Shown piece by piece: positions 39,294 through 62,221 of a DNA stretch of 64,000 bases. Within the stretch, counting starts at the first letter, position 1. Each line of letters starts with the position of its first letter. The stretch is from a virus, in the IMG/VR virus record IMGVR_UViG_3300012920_000025, positions 1 to 64,000 of that record; one strand, written 5' to 3'. The position numbers and the translations under genes are program-made. The notes beneath the pieces are model-generated. The model searched no databases. It was not told where the DNA came from and worked only from the letters and a program-made list of their open reading frames with translations.

Positions 39294-41152
39294 GTTTATC
39301 AAATGATATTTTGTCAGAGATCACAGTGCACATGAAGTACGCAAAGTACATTCCAGAAAAAAACAGAAGAGAGACATGGGAAGAACTAGTAACAAGGAAT
39401 ATGCAAATGCACCTTAAGAAGTTCCCAGAACTTGAATTGCAAATAAGAAAAAACTATAAGATGGTTTTCGATAAGAAGGTATTACCCTCTATGAGGTCCC
39501 TGCAGTTTGGAGGCAAACCAATTGAAGTTGCCCCTAACCGTATTTTCAACTGTGCATTCATGCCGATCGATGACTGGCGCTCATTTGGTGAGGCAATGTT
39601 CCTTTTGCTAGGCGGTACTGGTGTTGGTTACAGTGTGCAGAAGCATCATGTAGAAAAGTTACCAGAGATTCAGAAACCAAACACTAAAAGAACTAGAAGG
39701 TTCTTGGTTAATGACTCGATAGAGGGTTGGGCAGATGCTGTAAAGGCGCTGGTCAGATCCTACTTTAACGGTGGATCTAGACTTAGATTTGATTATACGG
39801 ACATACGACCCAAGGGTGCAGCACTCGTGACGTCAGGTGGTAAAGCACCAGGACCCCAACCCCTGCGTGAATGTCTTGTCAAACTAGAAGGTATGTTATC
39901 AGAGAAAGAGAACGGAGATAAGTTATCATCTATTGAAGTTCATGATATGGTGTGCCACATTGCCGACGCTGTGCTTGCAGGTGGTATCAGAAGAGCGGCA
40001 CTTATTTCACTATTCTCTGCAGATGATGATGATATGATTGCGGCCAAGTCCGGTAACTGGTGGGAGACTAACCCACAGCGTGGACGTGCAAATAACTCTG
40101 TCGTTTTACTTCGCCACAAGATTGACAAAGAATATTTTATGAATCTTTGGGACAGAGTCAAAGCATCAGGGGCGGGAGAACCAGGGTTTTATTTCTCTAA
40201 CGACAAAGATTGGGGTACGAACCCCTGTTGTGAGATCGGACTTAGACCTTACCAGTTCTGCAATCTAACAGAAGTGAATGTTTCAGACCTAGAATCACAA
40301 GAAGACTTTGAAGAGAGGGTAAAGGCAGCGACTTTCATTGGCACGCTGCAAGCAAGTTACACAGACTTTCACTATCTTCGTGATGTTTGGCGCAGAACAA
40401 CAGAAAGAGATGCACTTATCGGCGTATCAATGACTGGTATTGCATCCGGTGCTGTTCTTGATCTTGATATGAAAGCAGCAGCAATCGCAGTTAAGAAAGA
40501 GAACTCAAGGGTTGCGGAACTTATTGGTGTTAAACCAGCAGCAAGAACAACTTGCGTGAAACCAGCAGGTACTACAAGTTTAACTGTTGGGACATCCTCT
40601 GGTATCCACGCTTGGCATAACGACTACTATATTCGTCGCATTCGAGTTGGTAAGAATGAACCAATCTATTCTTACTTGGTAGAGAATCACCCAGAGTTAA
40701 TCGAGGATGAATACTTCAGTCCCCATAGCACTGCTGTTATTTCTATTCCACAAAAGGCACCAGAAAACGCTATTATGAGAACGGAGTCAGCGCTTCAGTT
40801 ACTTAGAAGAGTTAAGAAAGTAACTGACGAGTGGGTGAAACCAGGGTTTAGAAAAGGTCAGAATACTCACAATATCTCTGCAACAGTATCAATCAAGGAT
40901 GCGGAATGGGTCGACGTTGGTGAGTGGATGTGGGAAAACAGAGAGAGTTACAACGGACTGTCTGTGCTTCCTTACGACGGTGGTACGTACACCCAAGCAC
41001 CTTTTGAGGATTGCTCAAAAGAAACCTATGAAGCAATGATGGCATCTCTCAGCAATGTTGACCTGACTAGAGTCGTTGAAGAAGAGGACAACACAGATCT
41101 TAAGGGTGAAGTTGCTTGTGCAGGCGGTGCTTGTGAGGTTAAATTTGTATGA
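39290..41152 (+). CDS. nrdJ: Ribonucleotide reductase, B12-dependent class II (NrdJ-type)
   Basis: 620 residues. The single-chain RTPR type is indicated by FNCAFMP (C88), the catalytic NPCCEIG (C313, E315) and QFCNLTE (C324). The 11-residue spacing from C313 to C324 equals that between C408 and C419 of the Lactobacillus enzyme. AGTTSLTVGTSSGIH forms a phosphate-binding turn, and the C-terminal CAGGAC pair is the redox shuttle. It makes deoxyribonucleotides using adenosylcobalamin. The start overlaps the helicase stop by 4 nt, and its stop overlaps the IscU start. Confidence 0.9.
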   Translation: MSLSNDILSEITVHMKYAKYIPEKNRRETWEELVTRNMQMHLKKFPELELQIRKNYKMVFDKKVLPSMRSLQFGGKPIEVAPNRIFNCAFMPIDDWRSFGEAMFLLLGGTGVGYSVQKHHVEKLPEIQKPNTKRTRRFLVNDSIEGWADAVKALVRSYFNGGSRLRFDYTDIRPKGAALVTSGGKAPGPQPLRECLVKLEGMLSEKENGDKLSSIEVHDMVCHIADAVLAGGIRRAALISLFSADDDDMIAAKSGNWWETNPQRGRANNSVVLLRHKIDKEYFMNLWDRVKASGAGEPGFYFSNDKDWGTNPCCEIGLRPYQFCNLTEVNVSDLESQEDFEERVKAATFIGTLQASYTDFHYLRDVWRRTTERDALIGVSMTGIASGAVLDLDMKAAAIAVKKENSRVAELIGVKPAARTTCVKPAGTTSLTVGTSSGIHAWHNDYYIRRIRVGKNEPIYSYLVENHPELIEDEYFSPHSTAVISIPQKAPENAIMRTESALQLLRRVKKVTDEWVKPGFRKGQNTHNISATVSIKDAEWVDVGEWMWENRESYNGLSVLPYDGGTYTQAPFEDCSKETYEAMMASLSNVDLTRVVEEEDNTDLKGEVACAGGACEVKFV

Positions 41153-41538
41153 GTTACTCGAAGCAAGTGATAGACCATTTTGAGAACCCAAGAAATACGG
41201 GATCATTAGATAAGAATGACAACTCTGTAGGAACTGGTATTGTCGGCGCACCCGCTTGTGGAGATGTTATGAAATTACAAATCAAAGTAAATGATAACGG
41301 AGAAATTGAAGATGCAAAGTTTAAAACATATGGTTGCGGTTCAGCAATTGCATCTTCATCTCTGGTTACAGAATGGATAAAAGGTAAAACTCTTGACGAA
41401 GCGCAAGAGATCAAAAACAAAGACATTGCGGAATACCTTTCTCTTCCGCCTGTAAAAATTCACTGTTCTGTCTTAGCTGAAGATGCAATCAAATCTGCCA
41501 TAGAGGATTATAAAAAGAAAAATGATAACTCTAACTGA
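41149..41538 (+). CDS. iscU: Fe-S cluster scaffold IscU-like
   Basis: 129 residues. All four cluster-site residues are present: C37 (GAPACGDVMKLQI), C63 (YGCGSAIASS), H105 and C106 (KIHCSVLAEDAI), with D39. These numbers equal those of E. coli IscU. The LPPVK motif for the HscA chaperone is present (LSLPPVKI). It should assemble [2Fe-2S] clusters. It overlaps the reductase stop (4 nt) and the IscA gene (17 nt), so the three are co-translated. Confidence 0.93.
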   Translation: MSYSKQVIDHFENPRNTGSLDKNDNSVGTGIVGAPACGDVMKLQIKVNDNGEIEDAKFKTYGCGSAIASSSLVTEWIKGKTLDEAQEIKNKDIAEYLSLPPVKIHCSVLAEDAIKSAIEDYKKKNDNSN

Positions 41539-41836
41539 ATCTGCTGCAAAAAAGATGAAAGCAATGCTAGACAATAAAGATGAGACGGGAGTGCGCGCCG
41601 CTGTACAGGGCGGCGGGTGTTCCGGTTTTACTTATAAGTTATTGTTCGATTCGGAGAACAAAGGTGATAAAGTAATAACAGACCAGGGCGTTAAGATCTA
41701 TGTAGACCCTAAGAGTTTTTTGTATTTGATGGGAACGACGATAGACTTTGTTGATGAATTGAATCAATCTGGATTTAGATTCGTCAACCCCAACGCAAAA
41801 AGAACTTGTGGGTGCGGCGAGAGTTTTTCAATTTAG
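41522..41836 (+). CDS. iscA: A-type Fe-S carrier IscA-like
   Basis: 104 residues. The family signature is complete: a GGGCSGFTY segment with C33 and a C-terminal CGCGESF with C96 and C98, the three Cys ligands. A-type carriers pass clusters from the scaffold to client enzymes. It overlaps the IscU gene by 17 nt. No cysteine desulfurase is visible in the window, so sulfur must come from the host or from elsewhere in the genome. Confidence 0.93.
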   Translation: MITLTESAAKKMKAMLDNKDETGVRAAVQGGGCSGFTYKLLFDSENKGDKVITDQGVKIYVDPKSFLYLMGTTIDFVDELNQSGFRFVNPNAKRTCGCGESFSI

Positions 41837-41908: not shown

Positions 41909-42181
41909 ATGTTTGGTGACAAAGAAGAAGATTTGTTGACGAAAGACGAACACATCGTCAATTTTATTAAAGCATTTGTTGCTATCGAGCAAGAGATGGA
42001 ACCCCTGAAGGAACACCTTCGTGATTTGAGATCCAGTTATTCTGAGAACGATTGGTTATCCAAAGAGGATATGCGAATGGCAGTTAAGGTATATAGGATG
42101 CTGAAATCTGGCGACGACCTTGAAATGATTACAGATTACTTTAATCATCTCAAGCAAAACTTTGGGGGTGCAGATGTCTGA
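41909..42181 (+). CDS. Small GapR-like protein
   Basis: 90 residues. The order IKAFVAIEQEMEPLKEHLRDLRSSYSE, W-LSKEDMRMAVKVYRMLKSGDD and a final helix matches the layout of GapR/DUF2312 coiled-coil DNA-binding proteins (IERIE--E---L--DIKD-Y-EAK, then K-LRK-I). GapR binds overtwisted DNA at replication forks. AAGGAG precedes ATG 41909, and the 3' end overlaps the next gene. Resemblance is by layout, so the call is moderate. Confidence 0.45.
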   Translation: MFGDKEEDLLTKDEHIVNFIKAFVAIEQEMEPLKEHLRDLRSSYSENDWLSKEDMRMAVKVYRMLKSGDDLEMITDYFNHLKQNFGGADV

Positions 42182-42497
42182 TAGAATCCTAACACTAAAA
42201 CCTCTCAATAGGTATGTTACAATCGTTCCGCATTTTGTTACAAAGAAGACTGATAACGGGGTTTTATTGCCTGAAGACTTTAAGCAAGAGGAGTCTAGGT
42301 TTGTGAAAGCAACGATTGTAGAGATCGCGTCAGACTGTAAAGAAGATCTCAAAAGAGTTCAAAGAACTTCCAAGAGTGAAGTCACTGCTATAGTTGATAG
42401 GTCTATGATCGAGGTTGTAGAGTTGGCAGATAGAAAGCATCATGTTATATTAGAGAACTACATCCTTGGCGTCTACAGGAGACCAGATGAAAATTGA
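42174..42497 (+). CDS. Co-chaperonin, GroES-like
   Basis: 107 residues from ATG 42174; an in-frame TTG 12 nt upstream is possible but less likely. LKPLNRYVTIVPH, then KKTDNGVLLPEDF, then FVKATIVEIASD, and VDRSMIEVVELADRKHHVILENYILGVY follow the Cpn10 order of strands. TDNGVLLP takes the place of the GroES mobile loop that docks into GroEL (hydrophobic triplet VLL). It overlaps its neighbours on both sides. T4 also carries a GroES substitute (gp31). A phage GroEL sits 14 kb downstream. Confidence 0.7.
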   Translation: MSDRILTLKPLNRYVTIVPHFVTKKTDNGVLLPEDFKQEESRFVKATIVEIASDCKEDLKRVQRTSKSEVTAIVDRSMIEVVELADRKHHVILENYILGVYRRPDEN

Positions 42498-43185
42498 TTT
42501 ATTTGGGGACGATATAGGTGCGGTTGAGTACGTTTCACATATGGGTACGGATCTGTCAGTTGTTAATGCGGCACGAGTGTCCTTTGGAGCAGGAAAAGAA
42601 GAAGTAGACGAAAAGGATATTAAACTCATCAACTATCTTATGCGCCACAATCATAGTTCTCCTTTTGAACATTGTGTGCTTACTTATAAATTTACTGTGC
42701 CTTTGTTTATACGCTCCCAACACCACAGACATCGTACTTGGGCTTATAACGAGATCAGTAGAAGGTACACTTCTGTGGACATGAAGTTTTATGAACCTAG
42801 TGAGTTTAGAACTCAGCACAAGTCCAACAGGCAAGCGAGCAACGTGGAGGGCATGATTGATCCCGACATGTCAAAGGGTATGGCCCCAGGCGTCACAGCA
42901 TCAAGAATGGTAAAAGACCATCACGCTCAATCCCTGTTTCTCTATACTAGGTTGGTAGAGGAGGGTGTTTGCCGCGAGCAAGCAAGAGGCGTCTTACCGC
43001 AAAACTTATATACACAGTATTATGGGACAGCAAACTTGCACAACTTACTGAAGTTTGTATCATTGCGCGTGCATGATGGCGCACAGTGGGAAATACAAGA
43101 AGTTGCTAAAGCGTGTTTGAGTATTGCGAAGCAGCACTTTCCTCACTCTGTGGAATCTTTTATGAAGCACAAAATGGAGCACTGA
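42487..43185 (+). CDS. thyX: Flavin-dependent thymidylate synthase ThyX
   Basis: 232 residues from ATG 42487, overlapping the co-chaperonin by 11 nt. The ThyX signature RHR-x7-S is exact (R81-H-R83 to S91 in RHRTWAYNEIS), preceded by FIRSQHH. The enzyme makes dTMP from dUMP with FAD and NADPH. A dUTPase at 50529 provides dUMP. The stop overlaps the start of the lipoprotein gene (TGATG). Confidence 0.93.
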   Translation: MKIDLFGDDIGAVEYVSHMGTDLSVVNAARVSFGAGKEEVDEKDIKLINYLMRHNHSSPFEHCVLTYKFTVPLFIRSQHHRHRTWAYNEISRRYTSVDMKFYEPSEFRTQHKSNRQASNVEGMIDPDMSKGMAPGVTASRMVKDHHAQSLFLYTRLVEEGVCREQARGVLPQNLYTQYYGTANLHNLLKFVSLRVHDGAQWEIQEVAKACLSIAKQHFPHSVESFMKHKMEH

Positions 43186-45206
43186 TGAAGAAACTAACAC
43201 TTTTACTTTTTCTATTTGCATGTTCAGACAGTAGCGTCACCACTGGAGGTCTAGACGCCGAGAGTATCAGAACTCTAATCTCAGATTCAGCATCGGTCGA
43301 TGTGCAGGTGGTTCAAATACCGGATATTACGGTTGATGTTTGGGTCGACCCTTGTGCCGATTTGCAAAATACCCACCCAAGGTTTTGCGATTGCAATCCA
43401 AATTGTTGCCAACAACAAACTTGGTATTGTCCTCCGCGAGGTGTAGAAGTGCAGGCAAAGTATGCAGTGTTGGATATTTGTGACGAAAACTTGGTGCCTT
43501 GTGATAGAAATCGAGATCCAAATTGCCCCCCGGCACAAATAATTGAAGAGACTGGTTGCCAGCATGCCTTTGATTGTCCTCCGGGTATCAATGAAGACTT
43601 CACTATGTATTATAATTGCGATATCAATGGTATATCCGGAACACAACAGGTGCGCTGCGATAAGGGTCGCTTGTATTACGGAGAGTGTGTAACCTGTTAT
43701 GAAGAAGAAGAGGTTTGTGACAGTGTCGACAATGATTGTGATGGTAATGTAGATGAAAATCAACTAAATGCTTGTGGTGGTTGCGGACAGGTGCCCGAAG
43801 ACATTTGTGATGGTTTGGACAATGATTGCGATGGTAACATCGATGAACAACTTATCAGAGAGTGTACAACTATATGCAACACCGGACTTGAGATGTGTGG
43901 TAACGGAGACTGGATTGGGTGTACAGCAGATCGGCCGACTGATGAAGAGTGTGATGGCGAAGATAACGATTGCGACAATCTTGTGGACGAGGGATTAAAC
44001 TGTCAATGTCCACCAGAAATGGTTGGTGCTTTAGTTCCATGTATGGAGTCTCCTCTTACCTGCGGTATGGGGTTTAAAACTTGCGAGTGTGTGAATGAAG
44101 ATTGCGAAGTTACTGAGATGACTGAATGTTTTGCTCTTTGTCACTGGGTTCCAGAGTTATCTGAAGGGGTGCCATGTGATCAGTTTGCGGGTATTGCAAC
44201 AGATCCGGAAGTATGCAATAACTTCGATGAAGATTGTGATTCTTTAATAGATGAGCAACTTACACGACAATGTTATACTGGACCAGAAGGCACCTTGAAT
44301 GTTGGTGTCTGTAACGAGGGTCAGCAAACCTGCAACATGGGGCAGTGGTACGGACAAGATCAGTCCAGAAGGCAGATTGTAGATTTCTGTGGCGGTGAGG
44401 TGCTTCCTAGTGATGAGATTTGTGATGGTGCCGACAACGACTGCGACGGCATAATAGATTATGGTGAAGAGATACCTGAAACAGATATATTATTTATCGT
44501 AGACTGGTCCGGATCTATGGAAAACTATATTAATGCGGTGAGAATGGCAATGAACAGGTTCGCTCAAGATTTTTCCGCAGAAGATAAGTTGAAGTGGGGT
44601 TTAATTGTGGGACCCAAACTTAGGGTGACCCCTACGGATAACGAAGAGATGCTGATCCTACAATCAGATATATCAAACTTTGAGGATTTTTTGACAGCGT
44701 TTTCGAATGTAGGTCAGTTTGACAATCAGACAGGAAATGAGATGCTTAAAGATGCAATATTATTATCGCTCGCTAACATATCCGGAAATGTTGCATATGA
44801 CTTCGCCCGAGCACGCTGGGCAAACAGAGTAAACTCACACCCAGAACTTAAATTTTTCAAAATCAATTGGCGTACTAACGCCGACAGAATCATTGTAGTG
44901 TTCTCTGATGAGCATGCGCAGTCGTTTTTGGTTCCTCGTGTCAATACGGATGTTGTATGGGATGCATTAGATGCGACACCAAACTTAAAGTTTTATGTTT
45001 TTGCGCAGAGGAACGCTAGAGTCTGGGACAACTATGCTCAACATGGCAATGGTTCAGTCTTTGAATTGTCGCGCAATCAGCAGCAGATGTATGATGATTT
45101 GATGTCGATTCTAGATGAGATATGCTTGTCTGCTGATTCGAGAGATGATTTTGAACCAGTGTCATACAGGCATCGATATGATTATGTTCAGAAAATATGC
45201 TACTAG
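43185..45206 (+). CDS. Predicted lipoprotein with five MopE repeats and a VWA domain
   Basis: 673 residues. The start ATG 43185 gives a short signal peptide with a lipobox-like LFAC (MKKLTLLLFLFAC). A Cys-rich region follows. Five repeats of the CD--DNDCDG-x-DE type (MopE metal-binding family) lie near residues 178, 208, 256, 344 and 413. A VWA domain starts near residue 434 with MIDAS-like DWSGS. The repeats bind Ca/Cu in related proteins. This architecture is typical of secreted proteins of Myxococcota/Bradymonadota-type bacteria. It may be an acquired host gene acting at the cell surface, for example in exclusion or adhesion. Its 3' end overlaps the next gene by 10 nt. Confidence 0.85.
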   Translation: MKKLTLLLFLFACSDSSVTTGGLDAESIRTLISDSASVDVQVVQIPDITVDVWVDPCADLQNTHPRFCDCNPNCCQQQTWYCPPRGVEVQAKYAVLDICDENLVPCDRNRDPNCPPAQIIEETGCQHAFDCPPGINEDFTMYYNCDINGISGTQQVRCDKGRLYYGECVTCYEEEEVCDSVDNDCDGNVDENQLNACGGCGQVPEDICDGLDNDCDGNIDEQLIRECTTICNTGLEMCGNGDWIGCTADRPTDEECDGEDNDCDNLVDEGLNCQCPPEMVGALVPCMESPLTCGMGFKTCECVNEDCEVTEMTECFALCHWVPELSEGVPCDQFAGIATDPEVCNNFDEDCDSLIDEQLTRQCYTGPEGTLNVGVCNEGQQTCNMGQWYGQDQSRRQIVDFCGGEVLPSDEICDGADNDCDGIIDYGEEIPETDILFIVDWSGSMENYINAVRMAMNRFAQDFSAEDKLKWGLIVGPKLRVTPTDNEEMLILQSDISNFEDFLTAFSNVGQFDNQTGNEMLKDAILLSLANISGNVAYDFARARWANRVNSHPELKFFKINWRTNADRIIVVFSDEHAQSFLVPRVNTDVVWDALDATPNLKFYVFAQRNARVWDNYAQHGNGSVFELSRNQQQMYDDLMSILDEICLSADSRDDFEPVSYRHRYDYVQKICY

Positions 45207-45958
45207 ATAGTGTGGTGGTGGGTCGTGGTTTTCACTCACTGCTGAAATCATATACAGAAAAGATTCCTATGGTTTTGGTTAATCACGATTCCCCAACTAT
45301 CGATTTAAAACTCTCCGATACATTTCACATAGAAAACCTATCAACAGTAAGAGAACTGGAAGCGTGGCAAATGTTAAAGTTCCTTTGTTCAATGGAGGGT
45401 TTGATTGTAAATCCTAACCCACTCTCTTATCTTAGGATGGAAGAGGATACTTTGCGCTTTAATGGAGGGCATATTCAATTCAAAAAGTGCCACCTCTTTT
45501 CATGTCCAGACTTAAAAACCGACCTTCCGATAGTCAGAATAGATAACGATGATTTATACAGGGTTCTGGATTTTATGAGGTTAAAAATATGTAATGCGTC
45601 TAATATAGATACAATATTTCCAAAAGACACATTTATAGACAAGATAGAGTGTTTTGGAAAGAAAGAAGTCGTGGCAGTTTCTACACTTTCAAAAGAACAG
45701 TTGACAACTTTTGACTATTCTGATACTATTGTTAGATTCATAACTCAAAAAGTTCTTTTATCTAGCAATGGTCTACACAGACCGCTGATATCAAAAGACT
45801 CGGAGAGGAGAAGAAACCCTATACTGACAGTGCTCGAAAGATCGGTCGTACCTATTTCAGAGACAGTATACAGGAGTTCTAGAAAGGTAAAATATTATGA
45901 CAGAAAAAAGCGAGATGACATCTTCAAAGCATATTGCAGGGATAATACCTGTATCTAA
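45197..45958 (+). CDS. Unknown protein, coupled to nucleotidyltransferase-like gene
   Basis: 253 residues. It opens with a beta strand and turn (MLLDSVVVGRGFHSLLKSY) and has no family I recognise. Distinct segments are LEAWQMLKFLCSMEGLIVNPNP and SDTIVRFITQKVLLSSNGLHRPL. It overlaps the lipoprotein gene by 10 nt at its start and the next gene by 62 nt at its end. Translation coupling suggests a shared role with the following protein. Confidence 0.55.
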   Translation: MLLDSVVVGRGFHSLLKSYTEKIPMVLVNHDSPTIDLKLSDTFHIENLSTVRELEAWQMLKFLCSMEGLIVNPNPLSYLRMEEDTLRFNGGHIQFKKCHLFSCPDLKTDLPIVRIDNDDLYRVLDFMRLKICNASNIDTIFPKDTFIDKIECFGKKEVVAVSTLSKEQLTTFDYSDTIVRFITQKVLLSSNGLHRPLISKDSERRRNPILTVLERSVVPISETVYRSSRKVKYYDRKKRDDIFKAYCRDNTCI

Positions 45959-50978: not shown

Positions 50979-51247
50979 ACGCCAAGAGAAAACTAAAAAG
51001 GACAAAGCAAAAGCAAGCAAAGAAAGATGTTGAAGTTACGTTAGGTCTTTTTGATAAATTGCCAGACCATTGCTTGACTTGCTTTGCGCCTTATGATAGA
51101 CTAAATAAAGAACAAGTGAAAACATGGAATGTTGTGGTCAGAGAGAAAGAAGGTAAAGTAAACCTTTATTGTCCAGATTGCTGGAATAAGGCAACAAATC
51201 TCATAAAGGAAATACAAAAGGAAACAAATGAAAAGGCAAACACATAG
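50975..51247 (+). CDS. Small zinc-ribbon protein, unknown
   Basis: 90 residues. Two Cys pairs (CLTC near residue 33 and CPDC near residue 66) should bind one zinc; the start is very basic (NAKRKLKRTKQKQAKK). The pattern FDKLPDHCLTC---YDRL and LYCPDCWNKA is seen in small conserved marine phage proteins of unknown role. Its place between dUTPase and GuaB genes, overlapping both, suggests nucleotide metabolism or DNA binding. Confidence 0.55.
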   Translation: MNAKRKLKRTKQKQAKKDVEVTLGLFDKLPDHCLTCFAPYDRLNKEQVKTWNVVVREKEGKVNLYCPDCWNKATNLIKEIQKETNEKANT

Positions 51248-52226
51248 TTTTGATGATGTGTTACTGATACCCCAATACAGTGACATAGAATCTAGATCGG
51301 AGATAGACTTATCGAGACAATTGGGAAGGAGGATACTTAGTATACCCATTATTACCAGTCCGATGGATACGGTCACTGAATCCGCAATGGCTGCTGCCTT
51401 CGGTGAGATGGGAGGATTAGCTATAACACACAGGTATTGTGACATGGTAGAGCAATCTAAGATGACTCCTTTTAGTGCGGCCGCTGCTATTGGCGTCACA
51501 GGTGACTTTATGAAAAGGATTGAATTCCTTATGGCAGATTCTAGGATTGATACGTTTTGCCTGGATGTAGCACACGGACACCACATATTGGTTGAAAGAG
51601 CATTGAAATCTATAAGAGATAAGTGGGGTAATGATGTCAACATTATTGCTGGTAATGTTGCAACACCAAAGGCATACGTAGATCTGTCTGATTGGGGCGC
51701 TGATGCTGTTCGTGTAGGTATAGGTGGTGGATCTATTTGCTCTACGAGGATCCAGACGGGTCATGGCGTCCCGACTTTTGAGTCCGTTTTAACCTGTAGT
51801 TACGAGGACGGTGCTACCATCATCGCCGACGGTGGCATTAAAACAGCGGGAGATATTGTTAAAGCGCTTGCCGCTGGCGCAGATTTTGTCATGCTCGGTT
51901 CGATGCTTGCAGGCACAGATGAAAGTCCGGGTGATGTATTCGTCAGCAATAATGGCAAGTCTTTTAAGGTCTATCGAGGTATGGCATCTAAAGAAGCGCA
52001 AAGAGACTGGAGGGGTGAGGCGCGCTCACTGGAGGGCATTTCGACCACCATATCAGCAAAGGGTTCGGTTGTTGATGTGGTGGCGGACTTACTTCAAAAC
52101 ATAAGATCAGGACTGTCTTACTCTGGTGCTAGAAACATAACCCAGTTGCAGGCAAAGGCAGAGTTTATTGTTCAGTCTGCTGCTTCTCAGGTAGAAAGCA
52201 GTACTCATATTTTGAGGACTAAATGA
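51228..52226 (+). CDS. guaB: IMP dehydrogenase / GMP reductase family enzyme
   Basis: 332 residues. [12 protein letters not shown] opens the TIM barrel; [22 protein letters not shown], the catalytic loop [11 protein letters not shown] (Cys) and [20 protein letters not shown], then [11 protein letters not shown] follow. No CBS domains are present, so it is shorter than cellular GuaB (about 490). The loop favours IMPDH, but GMP reductase cannot be excluded. It would balance the guanine nucleotide pool in infection. It overlaps neighbours on both sides. Confidence 0.82.
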
Positions 52227-56190: not shown

Positions 56191-57780
56191 ATGAAACACT
56201 ATTCAGACGGTAAGGATTTACATCAACTGATGCTTGATGGGGTCAATCAACTTGCCGACAATGTAGCATCAACATATGGACCCAAGGGTCGTAACGTAAT
56301 ATTAAGGAAGAAAGATGGCAAACCGATCATCACCAAAGATGGAGTCACTGTTGCGAGATTTGTATCTCTCGAAGATCCGTTCCAGGATGCAGCAGTTGAA
56401 ATTGTCAAGCAAGCATCAGAGAAAACGAACTCCGATGCGGGAGACGGCACCACTACATCAACAATCCTAGCAAGAGCAATCTTTGCAAAGTCTCTTGAAC
56501 TTATTGAAAGAGGATTAAGTCCTGTGGAGGTCAAGCGTGGTTTAGATAAGGTATGTAAACTTGTCTGTGAGAAGATAGAGGAAAAGTCTAAACCAATCTC
56601 TAGCGCAGAAGATGTGGCATTTGTTGCAAAGATCTCTGCCAACAATGATCAGGTCATTGGTGATCTTATCTCCACTGCTGTAGACAAAGTGGGCAAGGGA
56701 GGTTCAGTAACTATTGAAGATGGTAGGTCAACTGAAACAACTCTTGATTTAGTCGAGGGTTTTAGGTTTCAGTCAGGATACTTATCGAACTACTTTGTAA
56801 CGGATGAAAGAAGAAATGTTTGTAGATATGAGAATGCTTTACTTTTCCTGTGCGACGCCCAAGTCGACCAGGTCCAAGTTATTTTACCAGTACTGGAAAT
56901 TGCTGCAAGAGAACAGAAACCAATCGTATTAATTTGCGATGATGTCGAGGGACAAGCACTATCTGCGCTTGTTATGAACTCTGCGCGAGGATCAATGAAG
57001 GTTGCCGCTGTAAAATCTCCCAAGTACGGTGAAGAGCGCAGAGCAGTCATGCAGGATCTTGCTATTGCTACCGGTGCCAGGTACTTTAGAACAATGATGG
57101 GCGATCAAGTTAGGGATGTAACTATTAATGATTTGGGAACCTGTCACAACATAGAGATCTCTAAGTACGGTACGATCATTGTCGGCGGCGGAGGAGATAC
57201 CGAAGAGATGTCTCAGCGGATTGAGGATCTGAAGCAACAAGTTAAGGATGCAGAGTCTCTTGTTGATGCAGAACAGATTCAGGAGCGAGTAACCAGATTG
57301 TCTAGTGGTGTTGCTATTGTTCGTGTTGGCGCAGCAACAGAGATAGAAATGATTGAAAAGAAGCATCGCATAGAAGATGCGCTAGAAGCGGTCAGGTCTG
57401 CACAACAAGAAGGCATCGTTCCAGGTGGAGGACTGACGCTATATAGAATCTCTCAAACGATTTTGGATGACATCAGGAATGTTGAGTTGACGGAAGATCA
57501 GAAGTTTGCTGCGGAAATCTTTTATGATGTTCTTAGGTCTCCGATCAAAGAGATGGCAGAGAATGCAGGGTTTACATTTGATGAGGTTGACGGAGTTTTG
57601 TCTAATGAATCAGACAATACCGGATTTAATTTCTTGACAGGACAACCCGTAGATATGTATAATAGTGGTGTTGTTGACCCAGCAAAGGTTACTAAAAACG
57701 CACTGAGAAATGCAGTCTCGGCTGCGGGTACATTGCTGACAACTAATTTTGCAATTATTGAAGAACGAGGAACTCCATAG
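56191..57780 (+). CDS. groEL: Phage-encoded chaperonin GroEL
   Basis: 529 residues. Cpn60 signature: TYGPKGRNVILRK, ITKDGVTVARFV, GDGTTTS at 84-90 (ATP site), a PGGG-type turn near the C-terminus (IVPGGGLTLYR), and the intermediate-domain repeats. It is 20 residues shorter than E. coli GroEL and lacks the GGM-rich tail, ending EERGTP. It should fold viral proteins, perhaps the capsid protein. A co-chaperonin gene is at 42174. It is driven by its own consensus promoter. Confidence 0.95.
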   Translation: MKHYSDGKDLHQLMLDGVNQLADNVASTYGPKGRNVILRKKDGKPIITKDGVTVARFVSLEDPFQDAAVEIVKQASEKTNSDAGDGTTTSTILARAIFAKSLELIERGLSPVEVKRGLDKVCKLVCEKIEEKSKPISSAEDVAFVAKISANNDQVIGDLISTAVDKVGKGGSVTIEDGRSTETTLDLVEGFRFQSGYLSNYFVTDERRNVCRYENALLFLCDAQVDQVQVILPVLEIAAREQKPIVLICDDVEGQALSALVMNSARGSMKVAAVKSPKYGEERRAVMQDLAIATGARYFRTMMGDQVRDVTINDLGTCHNIEISKYGTIIVGGGGDTEEMSQRIEDLKQQVKDAESLVDAEQIQERVTRLSSGVAIVRVGAATEIEMIEKKHRIEDALEAVRSAQQEGIVPGGGLTLYRISQTILDDIRNVELTEDQKFAAEIFYDVLRSPIKEMAENAGFTFDEVDGVLSNESDNTGFNFLTGQPVDMYNSGVVDPAKVTKNALRNAVSAAGTLLTTNFAIIEERGTP

Positions 57781-61850: not shown

Positions 61851-62221
61851 ATTTAAAGAAATTAAAACCTATATTTTATGAAAACTCAAGAGTTCCCATC
61901 TGGTTGTCGAAGATCGCACCTATCAATGTGTGGGCAAATTCATTTGCAATCTGGGTTTGGTGCAGAGGAGAGATGTCAGAAAAAACTAAGAGGCACGAGA
62001 CGATCCATTTTCAGCAGCAACTGGAACTTGGATTCGCCTTACATTGGATATTGTACGCCTTATCGTGGACAGCGGGTTACATCAGGTATGGAAATGGTCG
62101 AGATGCATACTACAATTGTATGTTCGAAAGAGAGGCATATGACAATGACCAGGATGAAGATTACCTTGAAAACAGACCACGCTTTGCATGGATTAAATAT
62201 ATCGGGAGACCAGTGTTATGA
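61847..62221 (+). CDS. HExxH metalloprotease-like protein
   Basis: 124 residues from ATG 61847, chosen for AGGAGG 7 nt upstream. RHETIHFQQQLE contains HExxH (H50, E51, H54), and FEREAY (E94 or E96) could give the third zinc ligand of a gluzincin-type site. Small phage/bacterial proteins of this HETIH-QQ-E kind are uncharacterised. A Trp-rich N-terminus (NSFAIWVWC) and a hydrophobic segment (ALHWILYALSWTAGYI) suggest membrane contact. It lies just before the endolysin and overlaps it. Confidence 0.55.
   Translation: MNLKKLKPIFYENSRVPIWLSKIAPINVWANSFAIWVWCRGEMSEKTKRHETIHFQQQLELGFALHWILYALSWTAGYIRYGNGRDAYYNCMFEREAYDNDQDEDYLENRPRFAWIKYIGRPVL

Follow-up and report, generated by a model that had tools for sequence, protein, structure and literature searches.

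The known exclusion lipoproteins of phages, T5 Llp and Cor, are small; Llp is encoded by the phage, exported and active at the outer membrane. To our knowledge, little work has been devoted to large proteins of the outer envelope that phages make in infection. Exclusion mediated by a lipoprotein has its precedent in the coliphages, where Cor likewise is phage-encoded and exported and acts at the outer membrane (PMC11893012). MopE of Methylococcus capsulatus, a protein of the outer membrane or cell surface with a short Cys/Asp motif, has a copper site of two His and a kynurenine, which the available text of PMC3423442 places in the secreted MopE* domain; the descriptions of MopE in that text mention no VWA head. 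A literature search returned no paper joining MopE, phage and von Willebrand factor. The gene under study, g37, encodes a MopE/VWA lipoprotein that resembles Cor and Llp in being phage-encoded, apparently exported and probably active at the outer membrane, but differs from both in its length of 673 aa, with a putative stalk and a MIDAS head. With MopE it has in common the probable outer-membrane or surface setting and, in sequence, the motif alone; the copper-binding MopE* domain was not found in it, and unlike MopE as described it possesses a VWA head.

The window is a stretch of 64,000 nucleotides (positions 1 to 64,000) from the IMG/VR virus record IMGVR_UViG_3300012920_000025, which comprises 86,538 bases and encodes a contractile tail sheath, UvsX, DnaE, a class II RNR, ThyX, GroEL and a head protease. 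Individual loci and contigs compared with it are designated by L-numbers. The ATG of g37 overlaps the stop of thyX (TGATG), and the gene is followed by a conserved gene, g38, for which a Pfam search gave no match (Table 1). The preliminary description set g37 amid nucleotide genes, correctly so: RNR, IscU, A-type carrier, GroES and ThyX are encoded 5' of it, and DnaE 3'. At the inspected loci with altered gene order, g37 is still found among accessory genes, outside the virion module. Pairwise dN, set against a saturated dS, gives a purifying pattern.

Table 1. Positions within the window of g37, its parts and the genes that adjoin it.
Feature	Positions	Strand	Remarks
thyX	42466..43185	+	Adjoins g37 on its 5' side, one-base overlap; PF02511, E = 2.8e-48
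GGAG, Shine-Dalgarno-like	43176..43179	+	Within the end of thyX, 5 bases 5' of the g37 start; read from the sequence
g37, MopE/VWA lipoprotein gene, 673 aa	43185..45206	+	Exact ORF
Short signal peptide MKKLTLLLFLFA and predicted lipid-attachment Cys13	43185..43223	+	Cys13 invariant, 49/49
Variable linker, aa 14-56	43224..43352	+	Low model confidence
Cys-rich domain, aa 57-175	43353..43709	+	CxCxPxCCxxQxWYCPP
MopE motif 1, aa 178-191	43716..43757	+	
MopE motif 2, aa 208-221	43806..43847	+	
MopE motif 3, aa 256-269	43950..43991	+	
MopE-like motif 4 (CNNFDEDCDSLIDE), aa 344-357	44214..44255	+	Near-invariant in the family
MopE motif 5, aa 413-427	44421..44465	+	
VWA domain, aa 430-648	44472..45128	+	Model pLDDT 91, pTM 0.90
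MIDAS DWSGS, aa 440-444	44502..44516	+	D440, S442 and S444 invariant, 49/49
Glu519, place of the canonical MIDAS Thr	44739..44741	+	Placed by spacing and the ExxxDA pattern; invariant, 49/49
Asp575, third MIDAS loop (FSDExxQ)	44907..44909	+	Invariant, 49/49
C-terminal tail, with the conserved strand RYDYVQKICY after a hypervariable linker	45129..45203	+	
g38, conserved gene 3' of g37	45197..45958	+	Overlaps the end of g37

The same phage possesses adjacent genes for an IscU-like protein (PF01592, 1.3e-54) and an A-type iron-sulphur carrier (41149-41836), a GroES-like gene (42162-42497) as well as a GroEL gene (56191-57780), and an IMP dehydrogenase/GMP reductase-type gene (51228-52226; PF00478, 1.5e-96). 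Two D12-class adenine methyltransferase genes, with one ORF between them, are located at L079:5563-7989.

The signal peptide of g37 is unusually short (MKKLTLLLFLFAC), but its lipid Cys is nonetheless aligned in all 49 homologues, and the lipobox Cys kept throughout the family upholds the lipoprotein signal that had been proposed. Most cysteines of g37 are invariant in the alignment of these homologues, and, leaving aside the Cys of the lipobox and that at the C-terminal end, the cysteine count is even (46, 52 or 54) in 45 of the 49, which would fit complete disulfide pairing outside the cytosol, in an oxidising compartment. These sequence features give good support to export of the product as a lipoprotein, and its location is probably the outer membrane of the infected cell. 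A virion-associated or assembly protein, for which VWA-domain proteins carried by other phages would offer a parallel, is very improbable in view of the lipobox, the disulfide-rich composition and the position outside the virion gene block. Two small Cys-rich ORFs, lipoprotein-like and without Pfam matches, are found at L079:3622-3858 and L079:19669-19947, and a relative of the latter sits near g37 in L020.

The Pfam family PF11617 (Cu-binding_MopE) matches g37 with E=1.2e-12 and a score of 48.3 bits (cut-off 27). The five repeats reported earlier are all present, compared with a mean of 0.0005 in shuffled sequence; those at aa 178, 208, 256 and 413 have the form CDxxDNDCD, and that at aa 344 reads CNNFDEDCD. 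The PF11617 match could be taken to indicate a MopE-like metal scavenger that supplies copper or another ion, but such a function is extremely improbable: the copper site of MopE sits in MopE*, according to the available text of PMC3423442, and the family profile matched no solved MopE structure when compared with PDB sequences for this copper-binding domain.

The MIDAS-bearing VWA domain of the preliminary description is likewise sustained, by AlphaFold and Foldseek, which support the fold, and by the invariant DxSxS. The full-length g37 model has a mean pLDDT of 75. The VWA score of the window protein is under the Pfam cut-offs, and that of the homologue L041 is over (25.5 versus 23.8); none of the five MIDAS ligands varies among the 49 homologues. 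In Foldseek the modelled VWA domain is closest to integrin-beta I-like domains (the first 31 PDB matches are integrin-beta chains, best E 7e-8), with Glu apparently replacing the usual MIDAS Thr, and integrin beta also has Glu at this place. By spacing and alignment, and without superposition, the integrin beta I-like (VWA) domain and g37 share the DxSxS, Glu and Asp MIDAS ligands and a WRxxA...D pattern, and Asp575 aligns to the corresponding loop in integrin beta-8. Unlike integrins, g37 contains no further integrin domains, and identity is 12-15%; integrin-type sequence-profile support for the head is weak (E 0.006), and PF00362 gives E 0.06-0.12 with the g37 family, under its cut-off. Two Myxococcota VWA lipoproteins (L247 and L250) share with g37 a lipobox-like N-terminus, and their VDVLxxxDNSGSM, DExxKDAAY and ISDExD patterns resemble those of the phage domain, but they contain no MopE motifs and score weakly against the profile (E 1.9e-6 and 3.6e-6). 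Because such lipoproteins have a similar DExxKDA pattern, a bacterial source of the head is likelier than an animal link.

A VWA/MIDAS head on a membrane-anchored stalk would suit a surface adhesin by which an infected cell attaches to neighbours, to prey or to particles, aiding phage spread; the conserved MIDAS implies a conserved ligand, and VWA domains are mentioned in literature on pili of Myxococcus and on the Kil predation pilus. Such an adhesin is nevertheless unlikely, since pilus or secretion genes were not seen beside g37 and, for a gene expressed during lytic infection, the time in which adhesion could be of benefit is short. Receptor masking and contact with predators or biofilms, both raised in the preliminary description, are hypotheses. 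Another VWA gene pair, apparently cytosolic, is found at L079:15389-17747 (record 79389-81747), where an AAA ATPase gene is followed by a DUF2201 metallopeptidase/VWA-like gene.

The conserved amphipathic strand at the C-terminus of g37 is new here, as is its exported SLT transglycosylase neighbour. A Cys at -2, together with alternating hydrophobic residues at -1, -3, -5, -7 and -9, is found in 45 of 49 proteins; the hydrophobic share at these five positions is 91, 98, 64, 73 and 82%, respectively, and at -4, -6, -8 and -10 it is 24, 29, 18 and 16%. A strict tail rule is passed by 27 of the 49 family members and by 1 of 100 cellular MopE ORFs; among 1,687 ORFs of relatives 7 others pass it, and in the window's phage no other gene does. 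Set against the consensus for the C-terminal beta-signal of outer-membrane protein (OMP) assembly (PMC10945584), the terminal aromatic/hydrophobic pair (-1, -3) is present in 41 of 49 tails and the internal-signal form is fitted by 33, and the canonical Gly (at -6; the polar-x-Gly part) occurs in none of the 49. The g37 tail thus resembles the OMP assembly signal, which is a resemblance and not membership.

The gene for the exported SLT-type transglycosylase (PF01464, 7.6e-17) lies directly 5' of g37 in 24 of 76 loci by hand count, with no SLT gene elsewhere within the examined flanks of these 24, and the pair is kept under other gene orders in L019 and L034. Exported SLT enzymes share the g37 slot or adjoin g37. 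The SLT gene is absent from the window and present in L003, which is 97-100% identical to the window across most of the compared stretch. The pairing, its persistence in L019 and L034, and the alternating hydrophobic residues of the tail might indicate an envelope-remodelling cassette, in which SLT would open the peptidoglycan and the tail strand of the lipoprotein would engage BAM or an OMP, so that the envelope is weakened or lysis is aided; this is rather improbable, as most loci, the window included, have no SLT gene, all 49 tails are without the canonical Gly, and a separate endolysin-like gene is encoded at 62218.

Variants of g37 are exchanged among these phages. L030 and L060 are 97% identical in DnaE and 49% in g37, and L016 and L017 are 76% identical in DnaE and 86% in g37; the 5' part of g37 is mosaic between the window and L003. 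Rank correlation with DnaE is 0.37 for g37, compared to 0.69 for g38 and 0.72 for g39, but it is also lower for thyX (0.44) and RNR (0.46), so that the whole stretch recombines, g37 most. The swapping of variants between phages suggests a surface role on the host. In 8 large genomes, identity in g37 and identity in DnaE track the putative receptor-binding genes, taken as those adjoining the tail sheath, equally closely (rho 0.42 for each). A bolder proposal would make g37 a phage-specific, integrin-beta-like adhesin shown on the surface of the infected host, lipid-anchored at one end and attached by a BAM-type strand at the other, partly spread in a cassette with SLT and traded among lineages as a surface-specificity module; this is doubtful.

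Homologues of g37 are present on 76 viral contigs or loci, many of them full-length and 41-93% identical in their best segments, and their usual slot is the thyX-dnaE interval; to judge from the contig names, several presumably come from ocean metagenomes. A protein search of 50,697 cultured phage records gave no match. The closest cultured RNR (65.5%) belongs to Microcystis phage Mel-JY01, the annotated RNR neighbourhood of which names no g37-like gene. An independent DnaE search, in which contigs with at least 5 kb upstream were counted, found g37 at the locus in 29/29 contigs with DnaE identity of at least 73.6% and in 0/29 sister contigs (DnaE identity of at most 68%); the contigs may overlap in origin, so the 29 + 29 are not 58 independent cases. 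In two of the sister records, L223 and L231, whole-record searches located g37 at another position. The characterization of the gene as unusual for a phage is apt in comparison with cultured phages, among whose records none was found, but it does not apply inside the present uncultured group, in which the gene is a shared one. The g37 slot of L185 and L189-L192 is occupied by a divergent allele, which differs in its VWA sequence but has MopE motifs and a tail of similar type. A second, divergent MopE/VWA lipoprotein gene (L041:12282-14588) is found in tandem directly 3' of the first.

Cellular MopE matches have mostly Myxococcota or Deltaproteobacteria titles. Weak matches to the g37 VWA type were found in 16/284 Myxococcota genomes versus 0/298 genomes of the Halieaceae phylum (a count that leaves out one chimeric contig), which is partly a matter of abundance, since Myxococcota have more VWA candidates per genome. 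The search for a cellular full-length orthologue of g37 found none. Thus, it is broadly right that MopE/VWA proteins are frequent in Myxococcota, as had been stated, but the host is not identified thereby: the Myxococcota lean may hint at the origin of the domains. No reliable host link through spacers or prophages was obtained; a 20-kb DNA search of 379 Myxococcota genomes yielded no clear spacer among the matches listed, which consist mainly of conserved-gene and MopE-motif similarity. IscU was rejected as a host marker, being equally close to the Myxococcota and to the Halieaceae phylum (79-81%). The Halieaceae contig L081 (46% match, from a MAG), which carries a fragment of the g37 gene family (L081:5619-7109), was rejected as a host clue because it appears chimeric: at the start of its phage-like part the GC fraction drops from ~0.65 to 0.41, and the ORF has no signal.

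The lipid Cys in 49/49, cysteine parity, non-virion position, invariant MIDAS, integrin-like fold, allele swaps and SLT neighbours argue for a product at the cell surface. Our preferred reading, held tentatively and at somewhat less than an even chance, is that g37 encodes an outer-membrane lipoprotein made in infection that alters the surface of the infected cell, most likely for exclusion. The gene would be expressed during infection from the nucleotide/replication block, apart from the structural genes, and its product would be exported by Sec, lipidated at Cys13 and probably delivered to the outer membrane. A stiff stalk bearing the integrin-beta-type VWA head would result from disulfides together with metal bound by the DxDxDG-like loops of the MopE motifs, and the amphipathic strand at the C-terminus may dock on an OMP or on the machinery that assembles OMPs. 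An envelope receptor would thereby be occupied or blocked, which would keep sibling and competing phages from adsorbing. As to purpose, superinfection exclusion ranks first among the hypotheses, with adhesion and envelope remodelling as genuine rivals, but the size of g37 counts against it, known exclusion lipoproteins being small, as does the equal covariation with putative receptor-binding genes, which a receptor-matched protein might be expected to follow, and the conservation of the MIDAS, a site at which variation would be expected on an arms-race surface.

The g37 gene is clade-wide in uncultured phages, combines an adhesin-type head with an OMP-signal-like tail, and recombines independently of the replication genes. 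Should its product act at the surface, it would open a testable way to learn how such phages protect or rewire the cells they infect, and would also serve as a marker for finding their hosts.
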